NCBI GenBank assembly: GCA_951394045.1
Contig: OX595991.1
Location: 1,984,001-2,048,000, forward strand
Source: Nitzschia sp. DOCU1
Taxonomy: Eukaryota > Bacillariophyta > Bacillariophyceae > Bacillariales > Bacillariaceae
Length of the DNA: 64,000 nt
Direction: 5' to 3'
Positions 37,532 to 54,724 of the stretch are shown here, one piece after another. How positions within the stretch are numbered: the first letter of the stretch is position 1; each line of letters opens with the position of its first letter. The position numbers and the translations under genes were made by a program. A model generated the notes under the pieces. That model did no database searches. It was not told where the DNA came from and worked only from the letters and a program-made list of their open reading frames with translations.

Positions 37532-38116
37532 GATTGTTGTACTTTGACCACAGAGTTAACTCCTTCCTCTACGAGATCAAGATGCGGAAGGTGGATCTGG
37601 ATTCAGGATGATTTCTATTTTAGAACAGTTGTCAGGGTGTTCTTCGGCTCCAAGGAGGGAGGTGAATGAAAAGCCCCTTTCTCTCTGCGGGATATCTTGA
37701 AAAAATTGCCCAGCCATCGTGCCGCCTGTGCAGCTTTGCATCAATGACGGTTACCAGGTATAAACTCACTGTCATATTGTGAATATATTATAGCCCTGAT
37801 TGAATCTATGCGTCCATCGAACTGATATTTATTTATCGGCCAGTTTTCATTAATCGGATTTCACCTAAGATTGAGGCTTAAGCTTCTACTAATCTTCCGG
37901 AACTTTTTGAAACCATGGCTCTAAAGATTGCGATGATAGAACGGTTGTATATACAATTCTTTTTAAGTACCAAACTTTTAAGCGAATATTTGGCGACCGA
38001 AGCCCCTACCCACCACTCCATCTAGTCCTCGATTGCCACTCACCCTTCGGTCATCCTCAGGGGGTGTGTCACGTCCCCACATTCCTACCCCAACCAAGCA
38101 ACGTCACCTTTGAGCA
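37532..38116. other. divergent intergenic region; left border of the putative large element
   Basis: Between the urea transporter (-) and the tyrosine recombinase (+). The left end of the proposed mobile element must lie here, but no terminal repeat or target duplication could be identified. Promoters for both genes are expected. Confidence 0.45.
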
Positions 38117-40678
38117 ATGGATGGTCAGATTGCCTTTTCTGACTCCTCGTTAGCCAACCCTCCACAATTTTCCAAGAGTTCCAACATGCCACCTTCCAAC
38201 CTACCCAATCCAGCTCCAGACCCGGCACTATGGCAGGATACTTCATTTCACTTCTCACTAGATGCCCGCTGCATGGATAGGTTCATCAACAGATACCTAG
38301 GACAAAAGGTGATTGATGGGCTAGTCGCCGCCGCCGAAAGATTAAGAATCCAGATCCCTGATTGCAATATCCTCTGGCTCACCAACCATGCTGGCAGGTA
38401 CCAGCAATATGCTGATCCAGATGACCGAAAAACACAGGAACAACTTCAACAAGCATGTTTTGCAGGGTTGTCGACAGAGGAACGGGATACACAGTTCCTG
38501 TCCAAATACCACAAGGAGGTGGCTTCTTCCCCTCGCTTTCGTGGTTCCAGTCTCAAGCCCACAACCACCAATTCCTACGAGGATAAGCTAGGCAAGCTTT
38601 GGATGTTCCTAGCAATGTTGGGCGATTACGAGAGTATGTTGATTCTTCTTGCAACACCCCCCATTGCATTTATTCCATCCATAAATGCAGACCACCTTAA
38701 GGCATATTGCGACCATCGATTTCTGCTAAAGAAGTCCCCACTGTTCTGCCCCAATACAAGCGATCAACCACTCTGTGATGTTCATGATGTACCAATTCTT
38801 GCAGAAGGTGGAACCTTCAACCACCACCGGTTTCAAAGTTTATTTGCGGCTGTCACCTTTCTATGCACCAAGCACAAGAATGGTGGGAACTACACCCCTC
38901 GCTGCGAAAACTGCTTCAACCATTTTATCAACCGTCAACTGACCCCCTGCCAATATCACCCAATCCAGAACTTCTGTAACACAGGCAATCCAATTTGCTC
39001 TGATGTAGCTAAAATGCTAAGAAAGTGGCTTATGGCCGAGAACAACCGGCGAAACTACTGTGTCCGAAAACGTGACGTACTTCTTCCCTCCGATCTTGTG
39101 GACATTCACCACCATGTTACCCAGGCTGACTTCCACATCACCCAGTTCCAATTTTATGTGATGTTACTCAATGCCCTTGATGGGGCCCTCCGATTTGATG
39201 GTCTGCACGACGTATCTTTTCAGGATTTTGAGAAAGACGAACATCGGCAACTTTGGCAAGTCAATAGTCACTGTGGAATTAAGTACCTGGTTCAAGGTGT
39301 AAAGGAGAAAAACGACAACCAGGTTCACCTTTACAAAATTTCCTTTAAAGATGACTTTCCCGAGCAATGCTATCTCCGCCATCTCCTTATTTTCATTCAC
39401 TGTGCAACTCATGACTCAGGTCACGTTTTCCGACGTCACGTTTTTGCACATCCAGGCAACCCGGCACCGGGCAACGTTGACAATGAACCACCCATAGGGG
39501 ACGACCACCCTGTGCCTCATCAATCATTCCACAACTGGATCTGCTCACGTCTCCGCCTAAACTGCCGCCACACTCTCAAACCTGGCCTGCTGAAGTGGGG
39601 CACTCATTCCCTAAGGCGTACCTTTTATTTCTTCTGGGCACTGGGTGGTGGCGAGTTCGAAGCTGCCAAGAGAAACGCTCGCCACAAGGACACTGCTACT
39701 GCCCTTGGCTACCAGGCGGACTCTGCAGTCCTAGTTCGGGAAATCCATTCCAACCCCAAAGCAGCCATTATACAACGAATTTGGCCAGCACAAGAGCGCC
39801 TCTTGTGCCAAGGCGGACACTCCCTTATGCGAATTCACCAATTTTCTGCAGACATCCCAATCGAGCTAGGTGGACTTTCAGAAGCGGCAAGTTATTTTGT
39901 TACCAAAATGCTGGGTGTGCCTAGCAACAGCCCCATCTATCGCAATGCGGGGCAGTTGTGCCAACTTTCTTATACCAGAAAATTTACAGACAACAGGGCT
40001 AAAGCCTCATACCTGGAGTGGGTCGAGGAAAGTTTAAACCCAGATCAACGCCAAAAAGCTCTATCCCTTGTTCACAATGCGGTGGAAGAGGAGGTATCTT
40101 TACAATTGCAAGGCAGTTCCCCTGAATCTACTGCTCCAAGTCCTGCAGCTGCACGAGGTACCATCCAACCATCCCCGACAGATGAACACAAGCCAGCAGC
40201 CAGCAATGCCTCCCAAGCAACCACTCCCTCAACACCACCTCCCACGCTACCAGGTTTCCACTTTACAGGTGTCACTGACCACGGATCAATTATTCCTCTG
40301 GAAATACTAGTCAAGGCAGGTACAACCACAACAGGTAGAGTTCAATACAAAGTCAAGCCTGACATCCTTCCAAGGCTTTCAGGGCACCATGGTGAATTGG
40401 TGATCAGGGTTCTGTATAGACTCATGCATGAGGTTGCCAGCATCGCTTTTGACGGTCAGCAGCCACCTGTACCCTTCGACCTACTCTACGAACAAGGGCG
40501 CAAAAAATGTCGACCATCCAGACACATTTTCAAGAAGTACCTCAACGCACTGCACCTTTGTATCCGAGTTTGTCATTCCAACAATATCAACAGCTTCATT
40601 GATGCTAACCCATCTTGGTGTATCAGCAATCCCCCTGTTTGCATCAAATGCTACCCACAAGTCCTACCCTCTAGTTAA
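38117..40678 (+). CDS. Crypton-like tyrosine recombinase
   Basis: Intact 853 aa. The catalytic set of the tyrosine recombinase/integrase family is visible: Arg359 in GALRFDGLHD, a beta-strand Lys candidate in QGVKEKND, His497-x-x-Arg500 in THSLRRTF, His523 in ARHKDT, and the nucleophile Tyr532 in ALGYQAD, all in the right order and spacing. The first ~330 residues include possible zinc-binding clusters (CENCFNHF, and C/H residues around 220-300) and likely a core-binding domain. The last ~300 residues include a Pro/Thr/Ser linker (~665-720) and a Cys/His-containing C-terminus ending in CIKCYP. Eukaryotic Cryptons and fungal Starship captains use this enzyme type to excise and insert a circular DNA intermediate without terminal inverted repeats. 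Start at 38117 is the first ATG; the ATG at 38186 is possible. Confidence 0.86.
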   Translation: MDGQIAFSDSSLANPPQFSKSSNMPPSNLPNPAPDPALWQDTSFHFSLDARCMDRFINRYLGQKVIDGLVAAAERLRIQIPDCNILWLTNHAGRYQQYADPDDRKTQEQLQQACFAGLSTEERDTQFLSKYHKEVASSPRFRGSSLKPTTTNSYEDKLGKLWMFLAMLGDYESMLILLATPPIAFIPSINADHLKAYCDHRFLLKKSPLFCPNTSDQPLCDVHDVPILAEGGTFNHHRFQSLFAAVTFLCTKHKNGGNYTPRCENCFNHFINRQLTPCQYHPIQNFCNTGNPICSDVAKMLRKWLMAENNRRNYCVRKRDVLLPSDLVDIHHHVTQADFHITQFQFYVMLLNALDGALRFDGLHDVSFQDFEKDEHRQLWQVNSHCGIKYLVQGVKEKNDNQVHLYKISFKDDFPEQCYLRHLLIFIHCATHDSGHVFRRHVFAHPGNPAPGNVDNEPPIGDDHPVPHQSFHNWICSRLRLNCRHTLKPGLLKWGTHSLRRTFYFFWALGGGEFEAAKRNARHKDTATALGYQADSAVLVREIHSNPKAAIIQRIWPAQERLLCQGGHSLMRIHQFSADIPIELGGLSEAASYFVTKMLGVPSNSPIYRNAGQLCQLSYTRKFTDNRAKASYLEWVEESLNPDQRQKALSLVHNAVEEEVSLQLQGSSPESTAPSPAAARGTIQPSPTDEHKPAASNASQATTPSTPPPTLPGFHFTGVTDHGSIIPLEILVKAGTTTTGRVQYKVKPDILPRLSGHHGELVIRVLYRLMHEVASIAFDGQQPPVPFDLLYEQGRKKCRPSRHIFKKYLNALHLCIRVCHSNNINSFIDANPSWCISNPPVCIKCYPQVLPSS

Positions 40679-40789
40679 TTCCAGGACCTTGACCTTCCAC
40701 CCTGTTCCGAGTTTGAACCCCCCCCAACAATTCAACGGAGTACATCATTTAATGAACCAAACACACTATAGCAACACAGCAGTCCAATC

Positions 40790-41815
40790 CAATAACAAGT
40801 AATGTACCAACCTTAGTATACCATTTCCACAGGTTGCTATCCACTTTTTAGCAATCTATTAGTAGAATTCACTAAGCTAGCTACCAAATAGCACGTTTTT
40901 GCTCGTTTATACGAGCTTTCCCGCCTATCCACACATTTTTGACAACTACCTGACACCCAAGGGTCAAATCCAATAACGAGTAATGGTCTAACCTTAGTAT
41001 ACCATTTCAACAGGTTGCTATCCACTTTTTAGCAATCTATTAGTAGAATTCACTAAGCTAGCTACCAAATAGCACGTTTTTGCCCGTTTCTACGAGCTTT
41101 TCCGCCTATCCACACATTTTTGACAACTACCTGACACCCAAGGGTCAAATCCAATAACGAGTAATGGTCTAACCTTAGTATACCATTTCAACAGGTTGCT
41201 ATCCACTTTTTAGCAATCTATTAGTAGAATTCACTAAGCTAGCTACCAAATAGCACGTTTTTGCCCGTTTCTACGAGCTTTCCCGCCTATCCACACATTT
41301 TTGACAACTACCTGACACCCAAGGGTCAAATCCAATAACGAGTAATGGTCCAACCTTAGTATACCATTTCCACAGGTTGCTATCCACTTTTTAGCAATCT
41401 ATTAGTAGAATTCACTAAGCTAGCTACCAAATAGCACGTTTTTGCTCGTTTCTACGAGCTCTTCCGCCTATCCACACATTTTTGACAACTACCTGACACC
41501 CAAGGGTCAAATCCAATAACGAGTAATGGTCTAACCTTAGTATACCATTTCAACAGGTTGCTATCCACTTTTTAGCAATCTATTAGTAGAATTCACTAAG
41601 CTAGCTACCAAATAGCACGTTTTTGCCCGTTTCTACGAGCTTTCCCGCCTATCCACACATTTTTGACAACTACCTGACACCCAAGGGTCAAATCCAATAA
41701 CGAGTAATGGTCCAACCTTAGTATACCATTTCCACAGGTTGCTATCCACTTTTTAGCAATCTATTAGTAGAATTCACTAAGCTAGCTACCAAATAGCACG
41801 TTTTTGCCCGTTTCT
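40790..41815. repeat. 181-bp tandem repeat array (about 5.7 copies)
   Basis: The mark CAATAACGAG (first copy CAATAACAAG) recurs at 40790, 40971, 41152, 41333, 41514 and 41695: five exact 181-bp steps, the last copy cut at ~41815. Copies differ at only a few positions (for example GGTCTAACC/GGTCCAACC, TTCAACAGG/TTCCACAGG). The array starts ~110 bases after the recombinase stop and runs into the palindrome-family array. Low divergence implies recent expansion or gene conversion. Confidence 0.93.
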
Positions 41816-42170
41816 GAGTTGACCAAATGGATTAGTCTTAACGCAGGCTACCCCGTTGGTCAAAGGCCACCTACCAGTTCGACTGCTAGGATCGCAATTT
41901 CTGATTGGACCAAATGGATTCGTCTTAACGCAAGCTACCCCGTTGGTCAAAGGCCACCTACCAGTTCGACTGCTAGGATCACCATCCATTGGATTAGTCT
42001 TAACGCAAGCTACCCCGTTGGTCAAAGGCCATCTACCAGTTCGACTGCTAGGATCGCAATTTCTGATTGGACCAAATGGATTTGTCTTAACCCACGCTAC
42101 CCCGTTGGTCAAAGGCCACCTACCAGTTCGACTGCTAGGATCACCATCCATTGTAAATCCAAACAACTAC
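41816..42170. repeat. four tandem units carrying GGCCACCTACCAGTT half-sites
   Basis: Units of about 75-87 bp contain TTAACGCAAGCTACCCC, then GGCCACCTACCAGTT at 41865, 41952, 42027 (one change) and 42114, then CGACTGCTAGGATC. This motif is the exact reverse complement of AACTGGTAGGTGGCC found as the right palindrome arm at 46.5-46.9 kb. Two alternating spacers (GCAATTTCTGATTGG and ACCATCCATTG) show a higher-order duplication. Confidence 0.92.
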
Positions 42171-42240
42171 ATGGCTAGTAGGATTAACTAAATGCCTAGT
42201 AGGACTAACACATATACTAAAACCATTACTGTTTGGAATC

Positions 42241-45200
42241 CTATACCGGCACAGGCTCCCACTCGGTTGATCCAAAATACTTTACCATGGGTGCACCCTT
42301 GTTGGAAAGTCTGAACAATGACTGTCCTATGAAATACCGGTCAAACTTCTGGCAAAGACGACCATCCCTTGACTCGCAAAGGATATTCTCGACCTCATCC
42401 AGGTGAATGGGCCTAGTACCCACCGAAAGGGATGTTCTTATGTCCTCTAGGACCTGTGTCATATCCTCTTTCCCTATACCCGCCATCAGAAGGTGGTCGT
42501 GCCCCCCGCTCCCCTCCAGTGGGACGAAGACACTGCGCAATTGTTTCCGCGCCTTCACGCCAAGTCCCAAGTGAGCATCAGCTTGCACACACAGCATCAG
42601 ACGGAAACCGCCCAGTTGACACAATATTCTCGCCTTTATATTTTTGTTGGTGTGCAGCAATGTTGTTGTGACATTTTCCATATTCGGTTCCACGATTTGG
42701 TTCATGTTTGACGCAAGTAAACGCAGCTCCTCCACCACAAAGTCCACCAGTTCCTTTTTGGGATTAACGTCTGTCCCAAAAGTTACCGCAAAATCAATAG
42801 CCGCCGGTCCGAATCGTGGGGTCGACCCACCAATCATCCGTGCACAGGGTTTCTTGTCCTCGAACAATATGTTTGCCACGCGGTAGTACTCAAAAATAGG
42901 GTAGTTAACGTCGAAGCCAGGGTTTCTCAACATTTGTTGGCAGACCTGGTGAAAATTCACAAAGCTGTTCTGCCACACCAGGACTAACACCAGCTGGTAG
43001 AGACCTGAGACTGGCACTCTCAACTTCGTTTTGAGTTCCAAAATGTCCGACAAAGCTAGGGACATCCAGAATCCACGACCGATTCCTGTCAGCAGGGTGA
43101 AGCTTCCGTCGGTGTCCCATGGAGTCATAGCCGACAACGAGAAATCGTCCACACAGTACCACCGTGGGATGTTTTTTCCTTGGTACCCGCCTTGGTGTGC
43201 CTCCACCCAACGCACGTAAGCCTGGTCCAGACTGTTGAGGTAAGTGCTAGCGGCCAGCATGACCTTGTTCACAGCCGATGCCTTGGCTCCGTAGTAATCG
43301 CCAATGTTGCGGCGATAGCCCGTGATCAACTTCACAGACCAAAGCGAGCCGGTCGCATCCACCAGATTGATCACTTTGACGACAACCCGGTCGTACGAGG
43401 GCCTGTGATCGTTGAATTGATCACGGTGTTCCTCACCCCCCTCTCCAGCAGATAAATTCAACAACTGTAAGGTGACGAACTCCACGTCGGACTTGCCAGA
43501 ATAAAAATAGTCGGCGAGATGCGACGCATAATCCTGATAGCGGCGGTGGTTGATTGTAACCGGTAGCTTGAGACAGTCCGACATTTCTCTCCCCATTGGA
43601 CACAGTCCATCCAACAGTTGCCCGATGACTTTTCTCACCAAGTGGTCTTCAGGTTCAGTGTCGGAGAATACCTCGGTGCCGCAAAGCGTCCTTGGCCGAA
43701 AGCTCCCATCCGGTAGGGCGTCGTACGCCTGTCCTCCATTCATTACGTCGATGCGCCGGCCTCCAGATCTTTTCTCCTGTCTACCACCCTTTTTTTTCAG
43801 GAAATTGAAAAGACAATCAAGCCCCTTGTACTGGCTGCCCTCTTCCGGGAAGTGTCGTTTAAAAATACTACTTTCCGGGCGTGCCACGTAAAATTCATTG
43901 CCCACCATTGCACGGGGGCATTGGTCGCCAACAACAATAAGAGGCGCGTCCGAACGTTCGAAGTGTTCGGGAGGACAGTCACCCATGTTTTGATATTGGT
44001 GGTTGTATTCGCCCAGTTTGCGTGCAAAATACACCTCCACCGGAGCGTGGTACAGCATAATAATGTCTTCGGTCCGCCTTACCACCAGGCGGTGATGAAG
44101 TTTCCTGGTTTCCTCCAATGTTGCAACGCGAAGGGGTTTACTGTCTTCAAGTGACGGGTCCCCTTGGCAGCTCGGACTTGCAGTCGGGCTCTGGGTGACG
44201 GCCCTGGCAGTGGGTCGGTGAGCCACTGACACTGCCTTGGTGAGGGCACGGCGGTCCTTATCAAAAAGTGATGGGGCTGCTTGGAGGCTTGCAAGAACAG
44301 CGGTGGGCACGGGCAGTTGCCGTCGACTACGCTCTCCAATCTTGATTTCCACCTCGGTGCTTTGCTTGCGGTAGGACGTAAGACGATTGATAGTCATGGA
44401 TGACTCTCTCCTCTTATCTAGCTCCATTGTCACGGCAAGCCTGACCAACGTTCTCTGAGCTGGCCATTGACGTTCGTCCATTTTGGAGCATGCACGAAGG
44501 AAATGTGTCTTCAACTGAACATTCAAGTCTTGCTTGTATTCGAAGAAAGATTGCGATTTAGACCGCGCAGAGACCTTTTGGCGGATTGTCGCGGGGTCGT
44601 CGAGGAGCTCCCTCATCATGGTCTTATTCTCGATGATTACATCGTGGGTCGGACACATCATCAGGAGGTCTTGACAGGACTCAAGGACCATACGCTTGGT
44701 GGAACAATCCAAAAAAATCAGGGTAAATAGCTTCTTCATCACATCCTCGTCCTCAAATATCTCAGTACGAAGAACTGGCTCAAAACAACACTGCATCGTC
44801 CTCCAGGCTAGCTGGAGAATTTTTTGACGTTCAACCAGATTCCTCCAAGAAGACAGCTCTGTGAAAAGTTTTGAAACAAGGCGGTCCTTCTCCGAATGTC
44901 TGTTGGGACCGGTAATTTTTTTTTTTTTGGGCAAAGGACCAAGCGTACTGCTATCGGTCACGTCGTCGGTGGCCATGCTGTAGGTTCCTCCTTCGCCTTG
45001 GCTCCAGCTGGTGTCGTCGAAATCCTCCTCCTCGTAGTCGCCCTTTGAGTCTTCGTCGTCGTAGTCGTCTGTGGATTCTTCCTCATCGTCTTCGGATTCC
45101 GAATCATTCGCCTCATTCTGGATGGTTGTAGTATTACCAGGCCCACCTGCCAATCTAGATACGTGCGAGTTAGCAGGTTTGCCGCCGGCCGTAGCATCCT

Positions 45201-46056
45201 TGGCACCGATACCCATTTGGTCCGGCACGGTTGTAGTGTAAACAGATAATGTTGCGGCGGCCCCGCCTCCTTTGCTGTGTAACACGGATTTGGTCTCTCC
45301 CAAATCGGTGGAGGGCGGCGGGAAAAGTTCATCACTTTGGAGCACTTTGTAGAGCGACTCCATCATGGTCGCCGCTCGATAATACATCTGCGCCTTGTCG
45401 CCGCCAATCAACTTCAGGCAGTTGTGGATGCGGACGTAGGACACATGTACGTGACCTTGCGCCACCTTAGCCTGCCAGCCACGTAAACGCAGGAAGGTGG
45501 CTAACGACATTTTGAGTTCGTTAGAAAATACCGTGCAGGCGTAAATGCTATCACGGAAAAAAGATTTCTTGCGCTTCTTCGAAAATAGAATAAGACCGAG
45601 AGCAACCATGCCCTGTGAGGGCAAATAAGGACTTTGTGTCCGATTCATCTCCTTTCGCTTTTTTGTCTCGACGACCTTGGAAACGGCCTGGGTGAGGTTG
45701 ACATCGTTGACATCACCGCCGTTGGAGAATGCAACAACATCGTTTCCCAGCGCTGCGGTGAGTAGGTCCATTTCCTCATCCAAAAATAAATTCCTGATCG
45801 TCTGACCAGCGACGGTGGGTTGCGTCGGCCCCGTGGTAAAATCGGGGTCAGGGCGCACAACGGCGTCAAAATTAACCAAGTCGCTTGTCGGCCAATCGAT
45901 GGTGCCTACCGCCCTACCGAGAACTGTATCTGCCGTCAAACTATCATCATCTATCAGGGAGACTGATTTGTATTGTTCTTTGAGACGTCGTCTGAGTGTA
46001 ACTACCATCGTATTCGCCTGTACCTGAAAACGGTGTGTGCGGAAATTATCGCGCAA
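42241..46056 (-). CDS. large orphan protein of the putative element, 1271 aa
   Basis: Unbroken 1271 codons read from 46056. Visible parts: basic N-terminal region (~1-60); a domain around 150-240 with YLPSQGMVALGLILF and RLRGWQAKV; a strongly acidic, Ser-rich segment (~315-375); a basic patch PLPKKKKITGP (nuclear localisation candidate); an all-helical-looking middle (~395-560); and a conserved-looking C-terminal half (~640-1271). One segment, GEEHRDQFND (His877, Asp879), resembles the HxD iron-binding motif of 2-oxoglutarate dioxygenases, but the fold is not established. No transposase family recognised. Divergently transcribed from the protease gene across a palindrome-bearing spacer. Confidence 0.7.
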   Translation of the reverse strand: MRDNFRTHRFQVQANTMVVTLRRRLKEQYKSVSLIDDDSLTADTVLGRAVGTIDWPTSDLVNFDAVVRPDPDFTTGPTQPTVAGQTIRNLFLDEEMDLLTAALGNDVVAFSNGGDVNDVNLTQAVSKVVETKKRKEMNRTQSPYLPSQGMVALGLILFSKKRKKSFFRDSIYACTVFSNELKMSLATFLRLRGWQAKVAQGHVHVSYVRIHNCLKLIGGDKAQMYYRAATMMESLYKVLQSDELFPPPSTDLGETKSVLHSKGGGAAATLSVYTTTVPDQMGIGAKDATAGGKPANSHVSRLAGGPGNTTTIQNEANDSESEDDEEESTDDYDDEDSKGDYEEEDFDDTSWSQGEGGTYSMATDDVTDSSTLGPLPKKKKITGPNRHSEKDRLVSKLFTELSSWRNLVERQKILQLAWRTMQCCFEPVLRTEIFEDEDVMKKLFTLIFLDCSTKRMVLESCQDLLMMCPTHDVIIENKTMMRELLDDPATIRQKVSARSKSQSFFEYKQDLNVQLKTHFLRACSKMDERQWPAQRTLVRLAVTMELDKRRESSMTINRLTSYRKQSTEVEIKIGERSRRQLPVPTAVLASLQAAPSLFDKDRRALTKAVSVAHRPTARAVTQSPTASPSCQGDPSLEDSKPLRVATLEETRKLHHRLVVRRTEDIIMLYHAPVEVYFARKLGEYNHQYQNMGDCPPEHFERSDAPLIVVGDQCPRAMVGNEFYVARPESSIFKRHFPEEGSQYKGLDCLFNFLKKKGGRQEKRSGGRRIDVMNGGQAYDALPDGSFRPRTLCGTEVFSDTEPEDHLVRKVIGQLLDGLCPMGREMSDCLKLPVTINHRRYQDYASHLADYFYSGKSDVEFVTLQLLNLSAGEGGEEHRDQFNDHRPSYDRVVVKVINLVDATGSLWSVKLITGYRRNIGDYYGAKASAVNKVMLAASTYLNSLDQAYVRWVEAHQGGYQGKNIPRWYCVDDFSLSAMTPWDTDGSFTLLTGIGRGFWMSLALSDILELKTKLRVPVSGLYQLVLVLVWQNSFVNFHQVCQQMLRNPGFDVNYPIFEYYRVANILFEDKKPCARMIGGSTPRFGPAAIDFAVTFGTDVNPKKELVDFVVEELRLLASNMNQIVEPNMENVTTTLLHTNKNIKARILCQLGGFRLMLCVQADAHLGLGVKARKQLRSVFVPLEGSGGHDHLLMAGIGKEDMTQVLEDIRTSLSVGTRPIHLDEVENILCESRDGRLCQKFDRYFIGQSLFRLSNKGAPMVKYFGSTEWEPVPV

Positions 46057-46994
46057 ATGCGAGACGTAGTGAAAAACAAAAATCTGGGATTTCGGTTTTT
46101 CACCATTATTCGCCCTACGCTAAGTTACGCGTAGAGATTTGTACCAAGTTCAATTGACTGAATCTGAGAATTATGACAGGCAAGTGGACACCGCCGTGCT
46201 CTTGCGCGCGTCCGCCCGTGGGGTGGTTTGCTAAGTAGCCGGTGCTGTTTGGCAGTTGCATGACGAATAAGACTCACCTGGCCATCGAAATATTGTGCAC
46301 TATCCAGTTTATATTCTAAATTTGTCGAAGGTGCTCTTATGTACATAAGGAAGTTAGTATTTTGAACGTTGGGAGAATGTGTGCACTCCCCCTGTGGAAA
46401 GGTTATATGCCCTTGTTTCTATGTATCGGTACGAGCACGTGCCGACCCAATTTATGTTTAATAAGCCCTTATGTCTGTCGGAATTCCGGTCTCGAGATTC
46501 AACCCGGTCTGTCGGTCCTAGGGCCAGCAACCAGTTTGAAAATGTAACTGGTAGGTGGCCCTGGAGTGGGTGGGCAAACGGTCATTCAGTCATCCGTCAC
46601 GGTTCGACTGGTACCTGGCCCTGCCTCTTGTTGGCCATCCGTACTCCCGTCATACGGTCGCACGGATAACCACGGTCCTATTAGGGCCAGCAACCAGTTT
46701 GAAATTGTAACTGGTAGGTGGCCCTAGATTGGGTTGACAAACCGTCATTCAGTCATCCGTCACCGTTCAACTGGTACCTGGCCCTGCCTCTTGTTGGCCG
46801 TCCGTACTCCCGTCACACGGTCCACGGATAATCACGTCCTAGTAGGGCCAGCAACCAGTCTGATTTTGGAACTGGTAGGTGGCCCTGAATTGGGAAGCCA
46901 CGTGTGCTGCTGATGTCCTTGGTGGTTTGACAAGGCCATCTTCCAGTTGTCTGCTTAGGTCAATTGACATTAGAGCCCACAAATAACATCGAGG
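46057..46994. promoter_or_regulatory. bidirectional spacer carrying three complete palindromes
   Basis: 938 bases between two divergent long genes, so both promoters must be here. The left half (46057-46500) shows no repeat. The right half holds the palindromes at 46520-46886 described separately. Their position directly upstream of the protease gene would also suit a regulatory operator. Confidence 0.5.
46520..46886. repeat. three palindromes: 17-bp arms around 9-bp spacers, plus half-sites
   Basis: Left arm AGGGCCAGCAACCAGTT at 46520-46536, 46683-46699 and 46844-46860 (last base changed); right arm AACTGGTAGGTGGCCCT at 46546-46562, 46709-46725 and 46870-46886. Spacers of 9 bp: TGAAAATGT, TGAAATTGT, TGATTTTGG. 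Arms pair at 15 of 17 positions, with the same two off-centre mismatches each time. Further half-sites (CTGGTACCTGGCCCT) lie between the palindromes near 46610 and 46770. Period ~162 bp. Confidence 0.93.
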
Positions 46995-49900
46995 ATGCAA
47001 GAAGCCAGTCACTGGATAAACAAATATGAGTTGGTAGAACCACTCAAAAGAAAAGATTTGCCCAAACGGCAGCCCAATGATTGGGTAAGGCCCGGGGATG
47101 TTGATTGGTCGCGTGTTCTATTGTCGTTTGAGCGAAGGGACAGTTGGCTTGTTGAATCCGTCATTGTAACCATACTCGAGGGGATGCTGCCCAAGGGAAC
47201 GTTGCTGCTACCTCATTATATAGCCGAGCTGTTTCTAGGGCAAGAGAGGAATCTTGGTCCTGAGAATGGACGTTGGCAGCGATTCTTGGCCAATACCAGA
47301 GAAAAATTCCAATCGCAGCAACCCAATTTTGAACGGAGACAAATGGTGCGAGTTGTTGCCGCAGTCAACCTGCGAGAAAATCACTGGATTGGGTGCGAGA
47401 TGGACCCATTCAAAAGGAGGATTTGGGTTTATGATTCTATGATCCCCACTGGTTTGGCAGGTAGAGTATATCTATTTGATCCCATGCAGAAAACCCACGA
47501 AAAATTGCCTGTCACGTACAAAAAGTTTCATGTGATGTCGCAGTTTGTGGACTGCTTGTACAACCACCGCTCTGCCCCTTGGCAAATGGTATTTCCAAAG
47601 AAAGAGGAGGTGCCCCAACAAGTGAACTCCTGGGATTGTGGCGTTTATGCCATCATGATTCTGTTGGAAGTTGCAAGGTCACAACCCATTGGCTGGATTA
47701 CACCGACCGACGTGGGGAATGCGCGTCAGTACTTTTTGAAACTGATCATTGCATTGGGTAAGAAAAAACATTGTCAGTTCGATGAAGAAAAGTTGGACAT
47801 TGACGAGCGGGCTATGTTGGACGTCTACAAGGTCCATTTTGTGCAGCGTGCGGGTGCTGGAATTGGTGAGGGGGAGACAAAAAAAGGAGCTGCAGGGCGT
47901 AGGTCGAGCTATCCACTACGAATCAGGAAGGAAACAATCGCGAAGGACAGTACGAAAGAGGAGGTAATATTGATAGCAGAAACTCCACCAGATACTCCGC
48001 CAAAGAAGCAAAGAAGGAATGCCCTCACTGGTGATGAAGAGAGGGAGGACGATTCAAAAAAACCACCAGCAAAGCGACGGTCCGACTACCGACTACGCAG
48101 CAAGGAGGCAAGCACCATGGTGTCCACACGGAGTGGGGACAAAGCGACTAAGGTCTCCACCAAGGTACCAAAGAAGGGCCCCACCAAGACGGCAAAGCAG
48201 AGGGGCAGGCTGACCAAGAAATCAAAGGCCGCCGCAAAGGAAAACAACGGCGGCAAAGCCCTGGGACGGGACAACGTTCAAGAAATCGAAGCAGAGCTGG
48301 AGGATCCATATTTCGACTCCCCGTCCTTTTCATTGGACTCCTCCATATGCTCATCAGTTCGCGGATCTTTGAATGCAGACACCGACGACCAGGAATGGAA
48401 CAAAAAGTGCGCAAGGGCGATGCAACCGTTTGGTGAATTCGGGTTCCAGATTGAGTTGAAGTCACTGCATTTCCCCCCACTGTTAAAACCAGGAGAAAAC
48501 TGGGACGAGGCACTGCTCAACACTGGCCTTGGGCTGCTCGCCGCAGTATGCCAGCAAAAAGAGGAAGGCTTTTATATTTACCCCACAGTTCTATCTGGCG
48601 CTTACTCCTTCAAAGAGGGTTATGCTGCCAAGCCAACGGACCTGGGCGGCGCTAAAGTGGTTTTCATCCCTCTCCAGGTAGACGAACCTACCGAGCACTT
48701 TTTCCTCCTCAGAGTGGAAAAAGGGCCCTCCGAATCTGCGTCGGCACAGATGAATGTGACGTTATTCGAGGCCGTCGTTCGGGAAGACGGGGGTGCACCC
48801 AAAACCCTGGAGGAACTCGAGGCGGATGACCCAGACTTCTTTGTAACTGCTCAAGAGCTAGCAAAGACAGCCACGCGGTGGATTGGTTTGGAAGGAGAAG
48901 CCCGGCTGACTGGGTACGAGAACATCGCTTCCGCCCCGACTGATAGTAACAGTTGCGGTCCGGCCATCTTGCTGAAGCTGAACCAGGAGGTTGGTTGTCC
49001 TAATTGGGAGGACTGGCCCTCTGGAGGTGACGCTAGGTGGACCACAAAGGCAAAAGCGCTTCGGCTTGTCAGCAATGCCCTCCTTCATTTCTGGGACAAG
49101 CTAGTGCCAAACGGTGGTGAGGACAGCAACAATTGGGCAGTCTGCAAAGAGATCAGTCTGCGCCTCCATAGGTTGACCCCCCGATCCTTCATCGGGCTCA
49201 TCAGCCGACTCAAATGTTCCCCCTGCGTCTGCGTGGAGAAAGTACAATCCCAGTTTGTCTCGCTAGGTTGCTGCTTCCGCAGAATGCACTCCCAATGCTT
49301 TCTTGCGGAATGGACGCAAAGGGGGCAGGAGAGGGCTGGAACTCGGCCATTGTGCAGTAGCTGCAACGGGCAAATCGAAGAGATCCAGCTCATCAACGAG
49401 AATCTTGAGAATGAAATGTCAAAATGGTACCCACCGCCACGGGGCCCTTATGAAGAGGATTTCAAGGAGTGGCTGGAGGATTTGCAGAAGAAGCCGATGG
49501 TGGAGGACCCAATTCTCCCCATCGAAGAATTGCCCCAGGTCGCCCCTCAACTCACTGCCTCCCCTACGAGCAGCAATATTCTGACCTCGCCAGTGGTCAC
49601 TTCGAAGACGCCAATAGGGTTAAAAGGGAGCACAGTGCCGGTCCAACAAGAACAGTTGAGTGTCCATGCCGGTGTGGAGGACGGAGAAGAAGATTCAAAA
49701 AAACAATCAGCAGCCAAGGATCAGGGTGAAGAAGATTCAAAAAAACAATCAGCAGCCAAGGAAGGTGGAGACTGCGAAATGGACGTTGACGTGGCCGAGC
49801 CAGGGGAAAATCAGCAAGGCAAGCCTTACCGGGGCAGAACCATGCAAACACTAGATGTTGGGAGGAAAGACGGGGAAAAATACCTGGTGTGTTGTTTTTG

Positions 49901-50591
49901 CCGCAATTTCTTTGGAAAGATCAATGCCGAATTGTCAAAGAACTACAGAAGTGACAATGACGCAAGGATCATTTCCTATGTTTCTAATGAGATTGCCTGT
50001 TCCCAGCTGAGAAAAAAGAGCGGGTATAAAAGCATGGTCCAACACTTGTGGACATGTGGCCTTGCGAGGGGTAAAACAAGGGATGATTGGCCAGATTTCT
50101 TTGGTCCCTGCTATGGTGGTAAAAAAAGGAAGGGGAAACTGACAGATGCGGAGAAAAGGAGAACAGAGCCAAACAAAGCCAACAAAGGTCACGAGGGTAG
50201 GTGCAAGACCATAGCAGATGTGAACCTGACTGACCTGGTCCTTTGGTGCCCACACTGCGAGAGGGTTAAAGATGTGAAAAGAAATGTTGTGGAAGCCTTG
50301 TGCCCACACTGCCGACTGGATAAGAATGGTAAGAGAAAAGCCAAGGAAGCATTTTACCCAAATTGCCCCAAGAATGCATTCAAGAAGGTCGGAGAACATT
50401 GGTTGGTTGCTGACCTAGAAATGGAAGCCCATCATTGCATTAGGAAGACTCATGCTTGGAAGAGGATGAGGGAGCATGTTCGGGATGATCATGTTATGAT
50501 GGGAAGGCATGGATTGGAAAAGCATAGTCTGGAGGTGGAAAACTCACTACCACTGTTCTACCGTCACAAAGACACACCTAGCTTACCATAA
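46995..50591 (+). CDS. Ulp1/C48-type cysteine protease with RING-like and zinc modules
   Basis: Unbroken 1198 aa. N-terminal Ulp1-like domain: NHWIG with His130, WVYDSM with Asp147, QQVNSWDCGVYA with Gln209 and Cys215, the complete catalytic set of SUMO/NEDD8-type deconjugases. Residues ~290-440 are Lys/Arg-rich and low complexity. A second domain (~480-700) includes TDSNSCGPAILL (Cys654), a further cysteine-protease-like site. Then a RING-like finger (CSPCVC...GCCF...HSQCF...CSSC, ~740-800), a duplicated EEDSKKQSAAK linker (~895-925), a BED-like CCFC...HLWTC segment (~960-1010), and C-terminal CPHC...CPHC zinc ribbon. Ulp1-like proteases are frequent passengers in eukaryotic DNA transposons; here protease and RING sit in one chain, suggesting editing of SUMO/ubiquitin marks. 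Role inferred. Confidence 0.78.
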   Translation: MQEASHWINKYELVEPLKRKDLPKRQPNDWVRPGDVDWSRVLLSFERRDSWLVESVIVTILEGMLPKGTLLLPHYIAELFLGQERNLGPENGRWQRFLANTREKFQSQQPNFERRQMVRVVAAVNLRENHWIGCEMDPFKRRIWVYDSMIPTGLAGRVYLFDPMQKTHEKLPVTYKKFHVMSQFVDCLYNHRSAPWQMVFPKKEEVPQQVNSWDCGVYAIMILLEVARSQPIGWITPTDVGNARQYFLKLIIALGKKKHCQFDEEKLDIDERAMLDVYKVHFVQRAGAGIGEGETKKGAAGRRSSYPLRIRKETIAKDSTKEEVILIAETPPDTPPKKQRRNALTGDEEREDDSKKPPAKRRSDYRLRSKEASTMVSTRSGDKATKVSTKVPKKGPTKTAKQRGRLTKKSKAAAKENNGGKALGRDNVQEIEAELEDPYFDSPSFSLDSSICSSVRGSLNADTDDQEWNKKCARAMQPFGEFGFQIELKSLHFPPLLKPGENWDEALLNTGLGLLAAVCQQKEEGFYIYPTVLSGAYSFKEGYAAKPTDLGGAKVVFIPLQVDEPTEHFFLLRVEKGPSESASAQMNVTLFEAVVREDGGAPKTLEELEADDPDFFVTAQELAKTATRWIGLEGEARLTGYENIASAPTDSNSCGPAILLKLNQEVGCPNWEDWPSGGDARWTTKAKALRLVSNALLHFWDKLVPNGGEDSNNWAVCKEISLRLHRLTPRSFIGLISRLKCSPCVCVEKVQSQFVSLGCCFRRMHSQCFLAEWTQRGQERAGTRPLCSSCNGQIEEIQLINENLENEMSKWYPPPRGPYEEDFKEWLEDLQKKPMVEDPILPIEELPQVAPQLTASPTSSNILTSPVVTSKTPIGLKGSTVPVQQEQLSVHAGVEDGEEDSKKQSAAKDQGEEDSKKQSAAKEGGDCEMDVDVAEPGENQQGKPYRGRTMQTLDVGRKDGEKYLVCCFCRNFFGKINAELSKNYRSDNDARIISYVSNEIACSQLRKKSGYKSMVQHLWTCGLARGKTRDDWPDFFGPCYGGKKRKGKLTDAEKRRTEPNKANKGHEGRCKTIADVNLTDLVLWCPHCERVKDVKRNVVEALCPHCRLDKNGKRKAKEAFYPNCPKNAFKKVGEHWLVADLEMEAHHCIRKTHAWKRMREHVRDDHVMMGRHGLEKHSLEVENSLPLFYRHKDTPSLP

Positions 50592-51504
50592 TACATTAAT
50601 AGAGGTCCAAGATTTAGGTAAACATTGACTTAGTTGTCAAGATTCATGAAGGTGCTTATGTGCCTAACTACCACATCTGAATTGGAATTTAGTGCTCATA
50701 CAAGTCATATTGGTAGGTGGACTTGAATATTCTGTAATGGGAAGGAAGGGACAAAACTGCTCGGTCAAAATCGACTTAAAGTCGAATTGGTCCAATTGGT
50801 AGGTGGCCTTAGCCTGGGGTTGGGGCGAAGAAATTTGATTGGTTGCCTTCCAGTCAAATGAGTCCGATTGCCTTAAAGTCGAATTGGTCCAATTGGTAGG
50901 TGGCCTTAGCCTGAGGTCGGAGCGAAGAAATCCAATTGGTTGCCTTATAGTCAAATGAGTCGGATTGACTTAAAGTCGAATTGGTCCAATTGGTAGGTGG
51001 ACTTAGTCTGAGGTCGGAGAGAAGAAATCCAATTGGTTGCCTTCCAGTCAAATGAGTCCGATTGACTTAAAGTCGAATTGGTCCAATTGGTAGGTGGCCT
51101 TAGCCTGGGGTCGGAGCGAAGTCGAAATGGTCCAATTGGTAGGTGACGTTTGCCCGGGGTCGGAGGGAAAAAATCCAATTGGTTGCCTTACAGTCAAATG
51201 AGTCCAATTGGTAGGAGGCCCTCGTTGGGGATGAAAGAGAAGACATTCAACTGGTCGTACCAGTCTAATTAATTTGGTGAAATTGATCCAATCAGTCAAA
51301 ATTGGTTTGTGGTCACGTGGGTCGCTTTGGTAGTTTGGGTGGACCTAAGTAGGGATGATCAAGGGTTTAAAAAAAATGATGGGCAGGTGGGCGTGTGCCC
51401 CAACAATGACAAAAACTGGGAGGGCCAAAACGAGTTGGGGAAACGGTGTTACATCAGTCTAAAGAAGAGTTTGGTTTAAAAGAGAAGAAGATTGAAATAA
51501 GAAA
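50592..51504. repeat. array of seven AATTGGTAGGTGGCC-type motifs
   Basis: Motif copies near 50709, 50794, 50891, 50989, 51084, 51134 and 51205, mostly preceded by GTCGAATTGGTCC, so that CCAATTGG forms a perfect small palindrome at many sites. Units of ~97 bp (50794 to 51084) also carry TCCAATTGGTTGCCTT and CAGTCAAATGAGTC. These are sequence relatives of the 46.5-kb palindromes with AATT instead of ACTT cores. The remainder (51300-51504) is G-rich leader sequence of the next gene. Confidence 0.88.
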
Positions 51505-52443
51505 ATGTTGGAACCTGGGGAGTTGGTTATGTTGGAAGAAGTCATGGAAGAAACTGTCAAAAATGATTCCAATGATACGGATGGGCATGCTAAACAGAAG
51601 GTAAATGCCCCGTCAGCTGTCCGTTTGGAACCAATAATGGAGGAGCTTTATGCAGACATAGACGCATTGGAGATGATTGACCCGCACAGGTCCAGGGCAG
51701 TTGAACAACAATTCATTGAAGAGATTAAGGCAATTATTGCTCAGGCTCGTGATGAATTACGAAAAGGTGAAGAGACTAAAATTCCAGTGGAAACCACTGT
51801 CGTTGTGGTGGATGGTAAACAAGGGAGTGGTGAAATGCGCCAGGAGGTTAGCAAAGAAACGCAAACAAGAGATGACAGTGTTAGCGTAAAAATGGATAAA
51901 GTGGAAGAAAGTGAGTGTGCTCATGTTGAGAAAAAAAGGAAGATGAATTACGAGGAGTGGGAAGCACCGCCGGTGGAAAATGGGGAGTGGTTGGAGGCAG
52001 AAGGGTTTGGAGCATTACGTAGGTCCCTGGAGGTGGGAGTCCCGGAGGATGTCGAGGAGGCTGCATTTGTAGAGTGGGATGAAGAGGAAGAGGCCAGGAG
52101 GTTGGAGTTTAAACGTAGGGGTAACAGGCTGTGCGAGCAGTGTGGTTCTGACCCATGTTGCCTTGACAATTACTCGCGTGGCAAAGATGGGAAGGAAAGA
52201 AGGCTTGGACATGACATGATAAGTTTGGGGGAAGGAATGAAGGATAGAGATGGAATGAGTAATTTGGAAGTACGCCATAAATTGGAAATTTTTGCGAAGA
52301 GCTTCATGAAAAATCTGGTGGACGACAGGTTTAAAGACAAACTTCCAAAGTGCGTTGAGGAAGAAATAAAGAAAAGTTACCCGGAGAGGGGGGTGAATGT
52401 GAAGAATACCTTCAAACAAGGGTATATGTATTTCTTGGATTAG
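51505..52443 (+). CDS. acidic 312-aa protein with C-x2-C-G-x3-C-C motif
   Basis: Intact 312 aa. Residues 1-200 are acidic and helical in composition. The C-terminal ~105 residues have LCEQCGSDPCCL (four cysteines), a helical segment with RHKLEIFAKSFMKNL, and LPKCVEEEIKKSYP. From memory, similar CxxCGxxPC + LPxCV-x-x-I modules are common in uncharacterised diatom proteins; its function is unknown. Same strand as the protease gene, separated by a motif array. Tail-to-tail with the 180-aa gene, only 11 bases apart. Confidence 0.65.
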   Translation: MLEPGELVMLEEVMEETVKNDSNDTDGHAKQKVNAPSAVRLEPIMEELYADIDALEMIDPHRSRAVEQQFIEEIKAIIAQARDELRKGEETKIPVETTVVVVDGKQGSGEMRQEVSKETQTRDDSVSVKMDKVEESECAHVEKKRKMNYEEWEAPPVENGEWLEAEGFGALRRSLEVGVPEDVEEAAFVEWDEEEEARRLEFKRRGNRLCEQCGSDPCCLDNYSRGKDGKERRLGHDMISLGEGMKDRDGMSNLEVRHKLEIFAKSFMKNLVDDRFKDKLPKCVEEEIKKSYPERGVNVKNTFKQGYMYFLD

Positions 52444-52454
52444 TTTAAAAAATC

Positions 52455-52997
52455 TTAATTTTGTGGTTCCCAGTTGAACTCATTCTCCTCGATGTCAGAA
52501 GTGCTAGCAGCAGATGCATGGGTGGTGGTGGAATTGGTAGCAGCAGTATGTCTGGTGGTAATTTTCCTGGCCTTAGTTCTCTTGCGAATGTGGGGTGTGG
52601 CTGATTTGGCTATGGAAAAAAATTGGTCGAGGGAGTGCTGCTTGCCTTTCTTTACTTCTTTCAATGCTTGACGTTTGACTTTTTTGGCTGCACGTTCTTC
52701 GAATTGGTAGGATTCGTATCGTTCCCTGGCCGTTTGCATGGGGGGGAGCTTGTTGAGGTAGAGGTGGCACTGGGGACAGTGACAGTCTTTGGATTGGTGT
52801 TCGATGACAACTCGAGGGTCATAGGTAGGGTCGATTAGCCGGCGGGAGAACTTCACTTGGGGTGGACTACTCTCTGGAGATGAGGTCATATTGGGGGATA
52901 AGGAGGATATGGTTGTAACGATGAGGATAGGGTAAACAGGCTCGATGAGGGTGGTTTTTTGGCATGCTCCACACAACATTGCAAAATCGAAAATCAA
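52455..52997 (-). CDS. 180-aa basic protein with a PIP-box
   Basis: Read from 52997; Met37 is a possible later start, since the region before it looks untidy. A Cys/His cluster (CHCPQCH, ~72-78) could bind zinc. A very basic helix (~101-118, with AAKKVKRQALKEVKKGK) leads directly into QHSLDQFF (120-127), which matches the PCNA-interacting consensus Q-x-x-[ILM]-x-x-[FY]-[FY] at every position; basic residues before a PIP-box typically raise affinity. The C-terminus is Thr/Ser/Ala-rich, with a second basic patch (RKRTKARKI). The likely role is recruitment of element proteins to replicating DNA; this is inference. Confidence 0.6.
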   Translation of the reverse strand: MIFDFAMLCGACQKTTLIEPVYPILIVTTISSLSPNMTSSPESSPPQVKFSRRLIDPTYDPRVVIEHQSKDCHCPQCHLYLNKLPPMQTARERYESYQFEERAAKKVKRQALKEVKKGKQHSLDQFFSIAKSATPHIRKRTKARKITTRHTAATNSTTTHASAASTSDIEENEFNWEPQN

Positions 52998-53148
52998 TGA
53001 GTGGGCGACTGGCCTTTTGTCATTGGTGGTTTGGTGCTAAGGCTATAGCTATTTAGCCTGATAAGGCCATTTATGAGAAGGAAATCGCTGGGGCAATCAC
53101 CTCCGTGGGGAAAACGAGGTTGGGGAAATCAGTTGTTATCGAGTAAGT

Positions 53149-53264
53149 AGGGCCAGGTACCAGTTGATGGATAGGAAATGGTAGCTGGCCCTTGTGTGTC
53201 CAGTAAAGACTATCGTAAGAAGGGCCAGATACCAATTGATACATCAAAATTGGTAGTTGGCCCT
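53149..53264. repeat. two complete palindromes, 17-bp arms and 10-bp spacers
   Basis: First: AGGGCCAGGTACCAGTT (53149-53165), spacer GATGGATAGG, AAATGGTAGCTGGCCCT (53176-53192). Second: AGGGCCAGATACCAATT (53221-53237), spacer GATACATCAA, AATTGGTAGTTGGCCCT (53248-53264). Each pair of arms matches at 15 of 17 positions. Both are followed by TGTGTGTC and GTAAAG, at a 72-bp period. They are the rightmost members of the family and may mark the right end of the element. Confidence 0.93.
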
Positions 53265-54724
53265 TGTGTGTCAGGTAAAGAGGATTCGATCGCCAAGGTT
53301 TGGTGATGGATCGCCTTTTGGAAATGAACACATGGTACTAATTCTACATACGTCGACTGATAGTAGACATAGTATCGATCGTACAATATTTGTTACGAGT
53401 TCAACACTGTCTGTGCTCAAGCATACTGTCTGTCTGTATACTGGTACATACGTTTTACAGCTACGAATTGCTACGGTAGTTGAAACTGAGAATTGATGAC
53501 TCACTACCGCACAACTGCCGAAAGGTGAAGCTGTATCGATCCTGGTACTACAAGCTTTGGGAATCATAGCCGCGGAGCAAGAATTAGAGGAATTGGGGAT
53601 TACGCACCCTGCCGCTTCTACTGGAGATGCATTTCTAGTACTACCGGTAGACGAGATGTGCTTGTTGAACATCAAAACACAGGACGGTACAGAAAAGTTG
53701 ATACTTTTTGTTATGGACTCTCGTATGAAAATGAAAAAGTGAGCCATTAGCTGGTGGACTAGGGCAGACAAACAATTATTGCCAGTGTTATACTAGCAAT
53801 ATCAATTTTATATCTTATTTACTACGTGGTGCGCTATAGAGTTCAGCCACTGGAGAGCATTTTGGGCTAGCACACTCCAACCCTGTTTGATTCTTGCATT
53901 CCCTACATCGATGTAGGGATTTACCCATTCTTAGTAAAAAACCTCTCCCAGGGGGAAGAGGAAAACCAAGAATGGCTAGAAGGACCCGTCGTCAAACTGG
54001 CGCAACGCAGGGAAGAGAGACAGCTGGCTCTCGTCCTAGTCTGCTTACCATCCTTCAACTTGAATCAAACTAGCTGTCTTCCCCCTTGATTTATTTTGAC
54101 ATGCTCGTAGAGGGCGGCATGCAGGGAGAAAAGCAGAAAGGTCTTGGTGCCCCAAGTAGTCGGGCCAGTAGCTCCTGGGCTAGAGTCACGTCGAAGGCAC
54201 TGACGCCTTTGCGCCGTGTCATGTGCCGCATGCACGAAAGAGCTTTGCTCCACCCTGGAAACATTCAGAGGGGTCGAATGCTTCCCTGCCAAGCTGCCGG
54301 GGACCATGGAGGGCCTGGTCGGTGAATTGCCCAGGACTCACTCCAACCTCTCAATGAACCATTTGTTCATCCAATACAAATGTGGTGTTTCAAATCTCTT
54401 TTGTGTTCTGCCTGGAGAAAAAACGGGACGCAACAGTGCCCACCATCCTCAGAATGACCACGACGTCTGTCCTAGTTGGACAATTTGCCTCCCCATGCAT
54501 CACCGCGCAAATTGTGCCAGTGTTATACTAGTTCGTGAAGGGTCGACACCCTCCCGAATAGTGGCAAATCCAACAAGTGAAACTGTAGATATAGTAAACC
54601 TTGAGGATGAGAAGGTCCAATGGAAACCAACGTATGCCCCCCAAACTCAAGTGTACAACTTGCTGACATTCCTTTGCAGAGACTCAAGACAGTATTGCCG
54701 CTGGAAGGTGGCATCAACCCACAA
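53265..54724. other. region right of the putative element, with an orphan exon-like frame
   Basis: Mostly non-coding. At 53485-53742 (+) an open frame without its own ATG reads like a conserved exon (PKGEAVSILVLQALG, then AEQELEELGITHP, DAFLVLPVDEM, ending RMKMKK-stop). It could be the last exon of a gene disrupted or displaced by the element on its left. The 16-bp string GCCAGTGTTATACTAG occurs twice (~53779 and ~54518). Confidence 0.4.

Follow-up and report, generated by a model that had tools for sequence, protein, structure and literature searches.

A five-gene, 15.4-kb Crypton-like element in the genome of the diatom Nitzschia sp. DOCU1

Overview of the element

A 64,000-nucleotide stretch of the genome of the diatom Nitzschia sp. 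DOCU1 (GenBank assembly GCA_951394045.1, contig OX595991.1, positions 1,984,001 to 2,048,000 of the forward strand), here called the window, carries a 15.4-kb element with five genes. With a probability of about 0.8, we consider it to be a large DNA transposon that is moved by its own tyrosine recombinase and works like a Crypton. The observations behind this reading are exact ends, several copies, insertion immediately before GTA(C), the absence of inverted repeats, mostly purifying selection, and one gene order in two diverged lineages.

The searched genome comprises 52.08 Mb in 63 contigs, and the window lies on contig C7. The recombinase, 1271-amino-acid (aa), and 1198-aa genes occur in one order in the window, on C8, C4, and C3, and twice on C1 (copies C1a and C1b, 58 kb apart), as well as in a diverged copy on C5. 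A preliminary description of the window had listed five genes, three of them unbroken (853, 1271, and 1198 codons), and had seen a complete recombinase at one edge of one mobile unit. All five (853, 1271, 1198, 312, and 180 aa) are open, and one mobile unit with the recombinase at its edge is borne out by the clustering of the genes at seven loci and by six copies with exact common ends. The extent given there (38117..53264) was too narrow, as the element spans 37944-53371. Its features, in window coordinates, are as follows.

37944..53371, plus strand: whole element, 15,428 bp, with limits deduced by analogy to two other copies for which empty sites were found
37944..37963, plus strand: left terminal sequence GTTGTATATAYAATTCTTTT, with only one C/T difference across seven copies
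38117..40678, plus strand: putative tyrosine recombinase, 853 aa, with R359, K398, H497, R500, H523, and Y532
40786..41815, no strand: tandem array, 181-bp unit, 5.7 copies, between the recombinase gene and the first half-site array
41811..42153, no strand: array of single half-sites of the AAGGCCACCTACCAGTT type, with no hairpin by shuffle test
42241..46056, minus strand: 1271-aa protein, the C-terminal ~830 aa of which form a conserved family
46519..46894, no strand: palindrome array with three hairpins, in the gap that separates the divergently oriented 1271- and 1198-aa genes
46995..50591, plus strand: Ulp1/C48 (SUMO-protease-like) protein, 1198 aa, with H130, D147, Q209, and C215 kept in the C5 copy
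50704..51222, no strand: half-site array of the CCAATTGGTAGGTGGCCTT type with a 97-bp period
51505..52443, plus strand: 312-aa protein, the C-terminal domain of which belongs to a family dispersed in the genome
52455..52997, minus strand: 180-aa protein with the PIP-box motif QHSLDQFF, kept in the C5 copy
53143..53281, no strand: two palindromes near the right end
53340..53371, plus strand: right terminal sequence ending in GACTGATAGTAGACRTM
53372..53374, plus strand: target GTA at the right junction, 3 bp

Ends, target, and empty sites

Similarity between the window copy and the five other long copies stops at window positions 37944 and 53374, apart from the C1b match, which extends 16 bases more. 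Both ends are common to all six long copies, which lie on five contigs in flanks that look unrelated. The left-end and right-end queries each identified seven loci, one right-end locus being represented by two partial matches; the seventh end-bearing locus is an internally deleted 1.8-kb derivative that keeps both ends (C5:596005-597810). The left and right ends of the window element are both conserved in the long C5 element (0 of 1000 shuffles scored as well). No terminal inverted repeats were detected when the left end was compared with the reversed right end, since 377 of 1000 shuffles reached the same score, and an inverted match of the two ends noticed by eye was rejected for this reason.

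Empty sites were found as uninterrupted paralogous sites for two other insertions, C1a and C1b. A genome search with joined flanks returned 41 rows, of which 30 span the C1a junction and 1 spans the C1b junction. The C1a junction lies in repeated sequence, and all seven of the 30 spanning rows that were inspected are uninterrupted. The single row spanning the C1b junction is likewise uninterrupted, with a right-hand match of only ~27 bases. At C1b, the empty site reads ATTATC-GTACTATCG, and the filled site reads ATTATC/GTTGTATA on the left and GACGTC/GTACTATCG on the right (slash, junction). At C1a, five or six T residues precede GTACC in the empty sites, and the filled site has five T residues before the left end and GACATC/GTACC on the right. 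Comparison of the empty and filled sites thus places the insertion immediately before GTA, with only GT exactly shared by the two junctions. No real target duplication was found at the C1a and C1b paralogous empty sites, and terminal direct repeats of 5 to 6 bp, as in CryptonS elements, were not seen at the two junctions, which otherwise show a loose 6-bp match (GTTGTA on the left versus RTMGTA on the right). Seven of the eight insertions have GTAC as the target after the right end, and the window copy has GTAT; the diverged C5 end was placed by alignment only.

Two minor observations concern the ends. The last three bases before the right-end GTA contain two variable positions (A/G and A/C) among seven copies, and all four combinations occur; such variation is unusual in copies this similar and could reflect strand exchange at the crossover. 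End motifs (left or right) without a nearby recombinase match were also identified at C8:1223105 (minus strand) and C9:2417049 (plus strand) and at C3:1030931 (plus strand) and C8:2698669 (minus strand), and are possible solo ends or short derivatives.

Copies and gene order

In the diverged C5 copy, the gene order is kept and the recombinase, 1271-aa, and 1198-aa proteins are 57, 51, and 34% identical, respectively, to those of the window. The 312- and 180-aa genes were found at the same seven loci as the other three genes in the search of this genome. The window copy has all of its genes open, and at least one gene is broken in each of the five other near-identical copies: C8 has a cut Ulp1 gene and C1b an internally deleted one; C1a and C3 both have a broken 1271-aa gene, C3 also having a stop in Ulp1; and C4 has a stop in the recombinase gene and a broken 180-aa gene.

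When the matches of the recombinase, 1271-aa, Ulp1, and 180-aa searches were pooled by place under a 10-kb rule, at least 41 loci were obtained. Scoring was limited to the best candidates (37 of 67 for the 1271-aa protein), and all counts given here are therefore minimum values. All four genes are present at 7 loci, the recombinase and 1271-aa genes at 2, and the 1271-aa and 180-aa genes at 1. The other loci have a single gene: a 1271-aa relative at 15, a 180-aa relative at 9, the recombinase at 6, and Ulp1 at 1. Since 7 of the 41 loci carry all four genes and others carry single genes, the gene combination is a unit, though some of its genes also live elsewhere.

According to the preliminary description, a single element would be contradicted if the genes never co-occurred or if a second element ended between 40.7 and 42.2 kb. 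Neither is the case, because the recombinase, 1271-aa, Ulp1, and 180-aa genes, and the 312-aa gene too, cluster at seven loci of this genome and similarity runs continuously through 40.7-42.2 kb, where no end of another element was found.

Putative tyrosine recombinase

The 853-aa protein is taken as a tyrosine recombinase on its signature residues. R359, K398, H497-x2-R500, H523, and Y532, at positions which we take to be those of the catalytic residues of tyrosine recombinases, are invariant across three diverged proteins, the other two being 57 and 31% identical to the window protein over the alignment. The corresponding residues of XerD are R148, K172, H244, R247, H270, and Y279, and the spacings from HxxR to H (26) and from H to Y (9) equal those of the 853-aa protein. 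The HxxR-H-Y part arose in 0 of 20000 column shuffles. An R-H-R-Y tetrad is named for Crypton recombinases in the 2011 Crypton paper (PMC3212892).

The protein database gave one match to the 853-aa protein among 4446 candidates, no match was obtained in NCBIfam, in PHROGs, or among phage records, and an alignment scan of IMG/VR found no relative.

A second recombinase lineage is present at C10:2266765-2269113 and C4:2007785-2010130. These two loci are 97% alike and encode a 783-aa protein that is 35% identical to the window recombinase; no 1271-aa, Ulp1, or 180-aa match lies within 10 kb of them, and they may represent a smaller element.

Other proteins

Peptidase_C48 in the 1198-aa protein (E value, 2.5e-10) is the only Pfam domain above the cut-off among the five proteins, in line with the Ulp1 protease of the preliminary description. 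The best PDB match of the Ulp1 pair alignment is SENP1 (E value, 1.1e-4), and H130, D147, Q209, and C215 presumably are the C48 catalytic residues. The Ulp1 protein of C5 is 475 residues shorter than that of the window, mostly in the middle. The PIP-box reading of the 180-aa protein likewise holds, its motif being retained in C5, and we infer from this motif that the protein may bind PCNA.

No Pfam family above the cut-off was found for the 1271-aa protein, and an alignment scan of IMG/VR gave no relative. Its C-terminal ~830 residues have four relatives with 34 to 36% identity among 7992 candidates scored in the protein database. The AlphaFold model of the C terminus is poor (predicted local distance difference test score [pLDDT], 50.5), and a PDB fold search with this model gave 222 matches at an E value of ≤10 and none at ≤0.001. 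A 2-oxoglutarate dioxygenase had been considered because of a conserved HxD; this candidate was dropped owing to too few predicted strands, no Pfam match above the cut-off, and no PDB match. The 15 loci with a 1271-aa relative alone include C3:3957920, C8:1818023, and C11:1968907, and several of the 15 have long open frames with no partner match nearby.

The C-terminal ~105 residues of the 312-aa protein (about 204 to 308; gene at 51505-52443) have at least 50 dispersed relatives in the genome with 28 to 37% identity (59 matches minus those at the 7 loci of the element and 2 fragments from a different part), and therefore this domain is probably also part of other repeat families. In the protein database, the 312-aa protein had one match among 6375 candidates, with 99% identity. 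No Rfam family reached the gathering score.

Tandem array and palindromes

The tandem array that follows the recombinase gene has 4.1 to 11.6 copies of its unit in the five other near-identical copies. A homologous 182-bp unit is found in the C5 element, also directly after the recombinase gene (alignment score of 53 versus 42 for the best of 200 shuffles).

The preliminary description had a single palindrome family filling the gaps between the genes. This is right for half-sites and half right for full palindromes, hairpins of the latter being confined to two gaps. The gap at 46057-46994 has four hairpins versus a shuffled mean of 0.03 (100 shuffles); three belong to the family, and the fourth, at 46071, is A/T rich and unrelated. 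The gap at 52998-53374 has two hairpins versus a shuffled mean of 0.00. The gaps at 41816-42240 and 50592-51504 contain half-site arrays but no hairpin by the shuffle test, and the 48.6 kb of the window outside the element contain three hairpins. A half-site scan of the window identified 8 sites in forward orientation, which all fall within 41865-53223, and 11 in reverse orientation; of the latter, 9 are in element gaps, 1 is at 4181, and 1 is at 50404 within the 1198-aa gene.

Palindromes occupy the same places in the C5 element, with diverged sequence (GCCAGCAACCAGTT in the window family and CGATTCAGGAACCA in C5). The gap between the 1271-aa-type and Ulp1-type genes has five hairpins there versus a shuffled mean of 0.04, and three palindromes lie at the right end, in a longer stretch than that of the window. 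The half-site pattern of the window has a single match in the C5 region (2801009, within the C5 palindrome array), and that of C5 has a single match in the window, at 57364, which is not in the element. By eye, the half-sites of both lineages have a loose common TGGTnnnTGnnCC frame, which suggests divergence from one ancestral site rather than separate origins.

Selection and probable module exchange

The genes are mostly under purifying selection. The ratio of nonsynonymous to synonymous divergence (dN/dS) between near-identical copies was mostly 0.14 to 0.51 and, for the recombinase, 0.14 to 0.29 in copy pairs with both counts above zero. Outliers with very few changes were the recombinase of C3 and C8 (0) and the 1271-aa gene of C7 and C8 (0.69). 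For 312-aa pairs with zero or one synonymous change, the ratio was undefined or 0.72 to 1.92, and it was undefined for 180-aa pairs without synonymous changes. Omitted from the comparison were the C4 recombinase (stop), the C1a and C3 1271-aa genes (broken), and the C4 180-aa gene (broken); the Ulp1 ratio rests on three copies, because the C8 (cut), C1b (deleted), C3 (stop), and C5 (not entered) copies were omitted. The closest recombinase pairs have a synonymous divergence (dS) of 0.0035 to 0.0052.

When the window is compared with C5, synonymous sites of the recombinase and 1271-aa genes prove saturated, whereas dS is only 0.32 for the 312-aa gene and 0.52 for the 180-aa gene. The segment with these two genes (window 51579-52852 versus C5:2804512-2805798) has 89% DNA identity, and elsewhere the two elements are far more diverged. 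On the simplest reading of these sequences, a likely one, the 312/180-aa end of the element has been exchanged as a module between lineages.

Proposed mechanism and GC skew

Tyrosine-recombinase chemistry suggests that the recombinase would join both ends and excise the element as a circle, which would then be inserted at GTAC through strand exchange across a very short stretch of common sequence. On weaker grounds, the circle might replicate in the nucleus, possibly starting at a centrally placed origin, and the PIP-box protein might recruit PCNA for this. The palindromes could bind an element-encoded protein that has coevolved with them, the 1271-aa protein being our first guess, and Ulp1 could strip SUMO off host or element proteins, by which silencing would be escaped or replication permitted.

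The cumulative guanine-cytosine (GC) skew is V shaped in both lineages, with limbs of 550 and 661 in the window element and 626 and 612 in the C5 element. In ten overlapping 15.4-kb control stretches to the left of the element, the maxima were 228 for the first limb and 419 for the second, never together. The skew at fourfold sites, on the plus strand of the element, agrees with this at both edges, being −0.42 and −0.54 in the recombinase gene and +0.87 and +0.76 in the 180-aa gene of the two lineages. The V fits a central origin and hints at, without proving, a replicating circle. A bolder proposal, which we advance tentatively and think rather doubtful, is that the transposon is also an episome. 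It would excise as a circle and replicate from its own central origin, with the 1271-aa protein as an initiator on lineage-specific palindromes, the PIP-box protein recruiting PCNA, Ulp1 managing SUMO, and the ~181-bp array perhaps serving chromatin or segregation, before reinserting at GTAC.

Several results weigh against a recombinase-driven, circle-forming transposon. Models and profiles give the recombinase no fold support: its AlphaFold model is poor (pLDDT, 35.2), no Pfam family above the cut-off and no PDB chain at an E value of ≤1 was matched, and the hhalign profile match to XerD/FimB/FimE has a probability of 5.8% and lies mainly in the first-arginine box. The R-to-K and K-to-H spacings are also unlike those of XerD. 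At 15 of the 41 loci, a 1271-aa relative is accompanied by none of the other searched genes, and no circle or excision product was seen. The skew minimum of the window element is at ~43.9 kb, inside the 1271-aa gene rather than at the palindromes. In the C5 element, the minimum falls within the 5' end of the 1282-aa gene, and the final twelfth of the length shows no excess of G (−0.07). At fourfold sites, the 1271-aa gene is neutral and Ulp1 is mixed (−0.05 and +0.25), and thus a V could arise from the base composition of individual genes. Finally, since the half-sites share the loose frame described above, drift alone may explain the change in palindrome sequence.

Relation to known elements and alternative explanations

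Cryptons are usually small elements. The present one resembles them broadly in the R359, H497, R500, and Y532 tetrad and in the lack of terminal inverted repeats. Kojima and Jurka 2011 (PMC3212892) report CryptonS elements in oomycetes and in one diatom; some of these encode a further protein, C48 (Ulp1), and CryptonF-2_PS carries C48 as well. The C48 peptidase of some members and the stramenopile hosts are thus shared with CryptonS. The pairing of a recombinase with Ulp1 is not new, and the statement in the preliminary description that the combination was undescribed does not hold in this respect (PMC3212892). CryptonS elements have 5- or 6-bp terminal direct repeats and mostly TATGG termini (PMC3212892), unlike the GTAC target found here. 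The present element further differs from both CryptonS and CryptonF in its 15.4 kb, its five genes, its 1271-, 312-, and 180-aa proteins, and its tandem and palindrome arrays, and from CryptonF in that no GCR1_C DNA-binding domain was matched in the five proteins (Pfam). It is a Crypton-like element outside the direct-repeat feature of CryptonS and the GCR1_C feature of CryptonF. Apparently new are the five-gene size, the 1271-aa protein, the conserved ~181-bp array, and palindromes whose positions are conserved and whose sequences have diverged. Among the matches listed in the open literature there was no 15-kb recombinase element with five genes from a diatom or any other stramenopile, with subscription papers, preprints, and Repbase outside the scope of that search.

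The element stands between Cryptons and larger recombinase-driven elements. Palindromes fixed in place with diverged sequence offer a natural test of the coevolution of DNA sites and proteins. The 2011 authors state that Crypton transposition had not been studied until then (PMC3212892). The recombination junctions are directly testable here, because the ends are exact, empty sites are at hand, the copies differ little, and the five-gene core is conserved.

Among other explanations, an unlikely one is a cargo transposon of the Starship kind, with a captain recombinase at one end and host-derived cargo in the rest. Starships are fungal elements with a recombinase at one end, and the 15-kb element agrees with them in layout, its first gene being an inward-reading recombinase in a multigene element; this much of the comparison drawn in the preliminary description stands. 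It fails for the recombinase itself, which has no Pfam match above the cut-off and in particular none to DUF3435, although a very distant relative is still conceivable. In addition, the four partner genes, the arrays, and their order recur in a lineage with a 57% identical recombinase, which argues that the partner genes are core rather than cargo. Variable cargo was not found, as the set of five genes is identical across the two lineages compared, and the element is far smaller than giant Starships.

A degenerate integrated virus, or a virophage- or Polinton-like element with a tyrosine integrase, would account for the size of 14 to 16 kb, the several genes, and the skew V. We consider this somewhat less probable again, given that the five proteins matched no viral family, be it a capsid, an ATPase, a polymerase, or another (Pfam; PHROGs at an E value of ≤0.01), and that the IMG/VR scans with alignments of the recombinase and the 1271-aa protein gave no relative.

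DIRS/Ngaro retroelements have a tyrosine recombinase, and an element of this kind would also fit the lack of a target duplication. It is very improbable, as no reverse transcriptase or RNase H domain was found in the five proteins (Pfam) and inverted terminal repeats are absent. Some DDE transposons, among them Ginger and plant CACTA elements and MULEs, carry a C48 protease gene and have inverted repeats and target duplications; the protease is shared, whereas a DDE transposase, inverted repeats, and a target duplication were not found in the present element. A segmental duplication or satellite-rich host region instead of an autonomous element, to which the internal tandem arrays and the two C1 copies 58 kb apart might point, is hardly credible, because copies on five contigs have the same ends although their flanks are unrelated and because uninterrupted paralogous sites exist.

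Neighboring sequences

Directly to the left of the element, at window 35204-37531, is a urea transporter (PF03253) joined to EF-hands. Two neighboring similar open reading frames (ORFs) of 467 and 278 aa on the minus strand, at window 32315-34487, look glycosyltransferase-like by eye. To the right, an ORF at window 57711-58205 resembles, also by eye, a remnant of a Copia-type retrotransposon.

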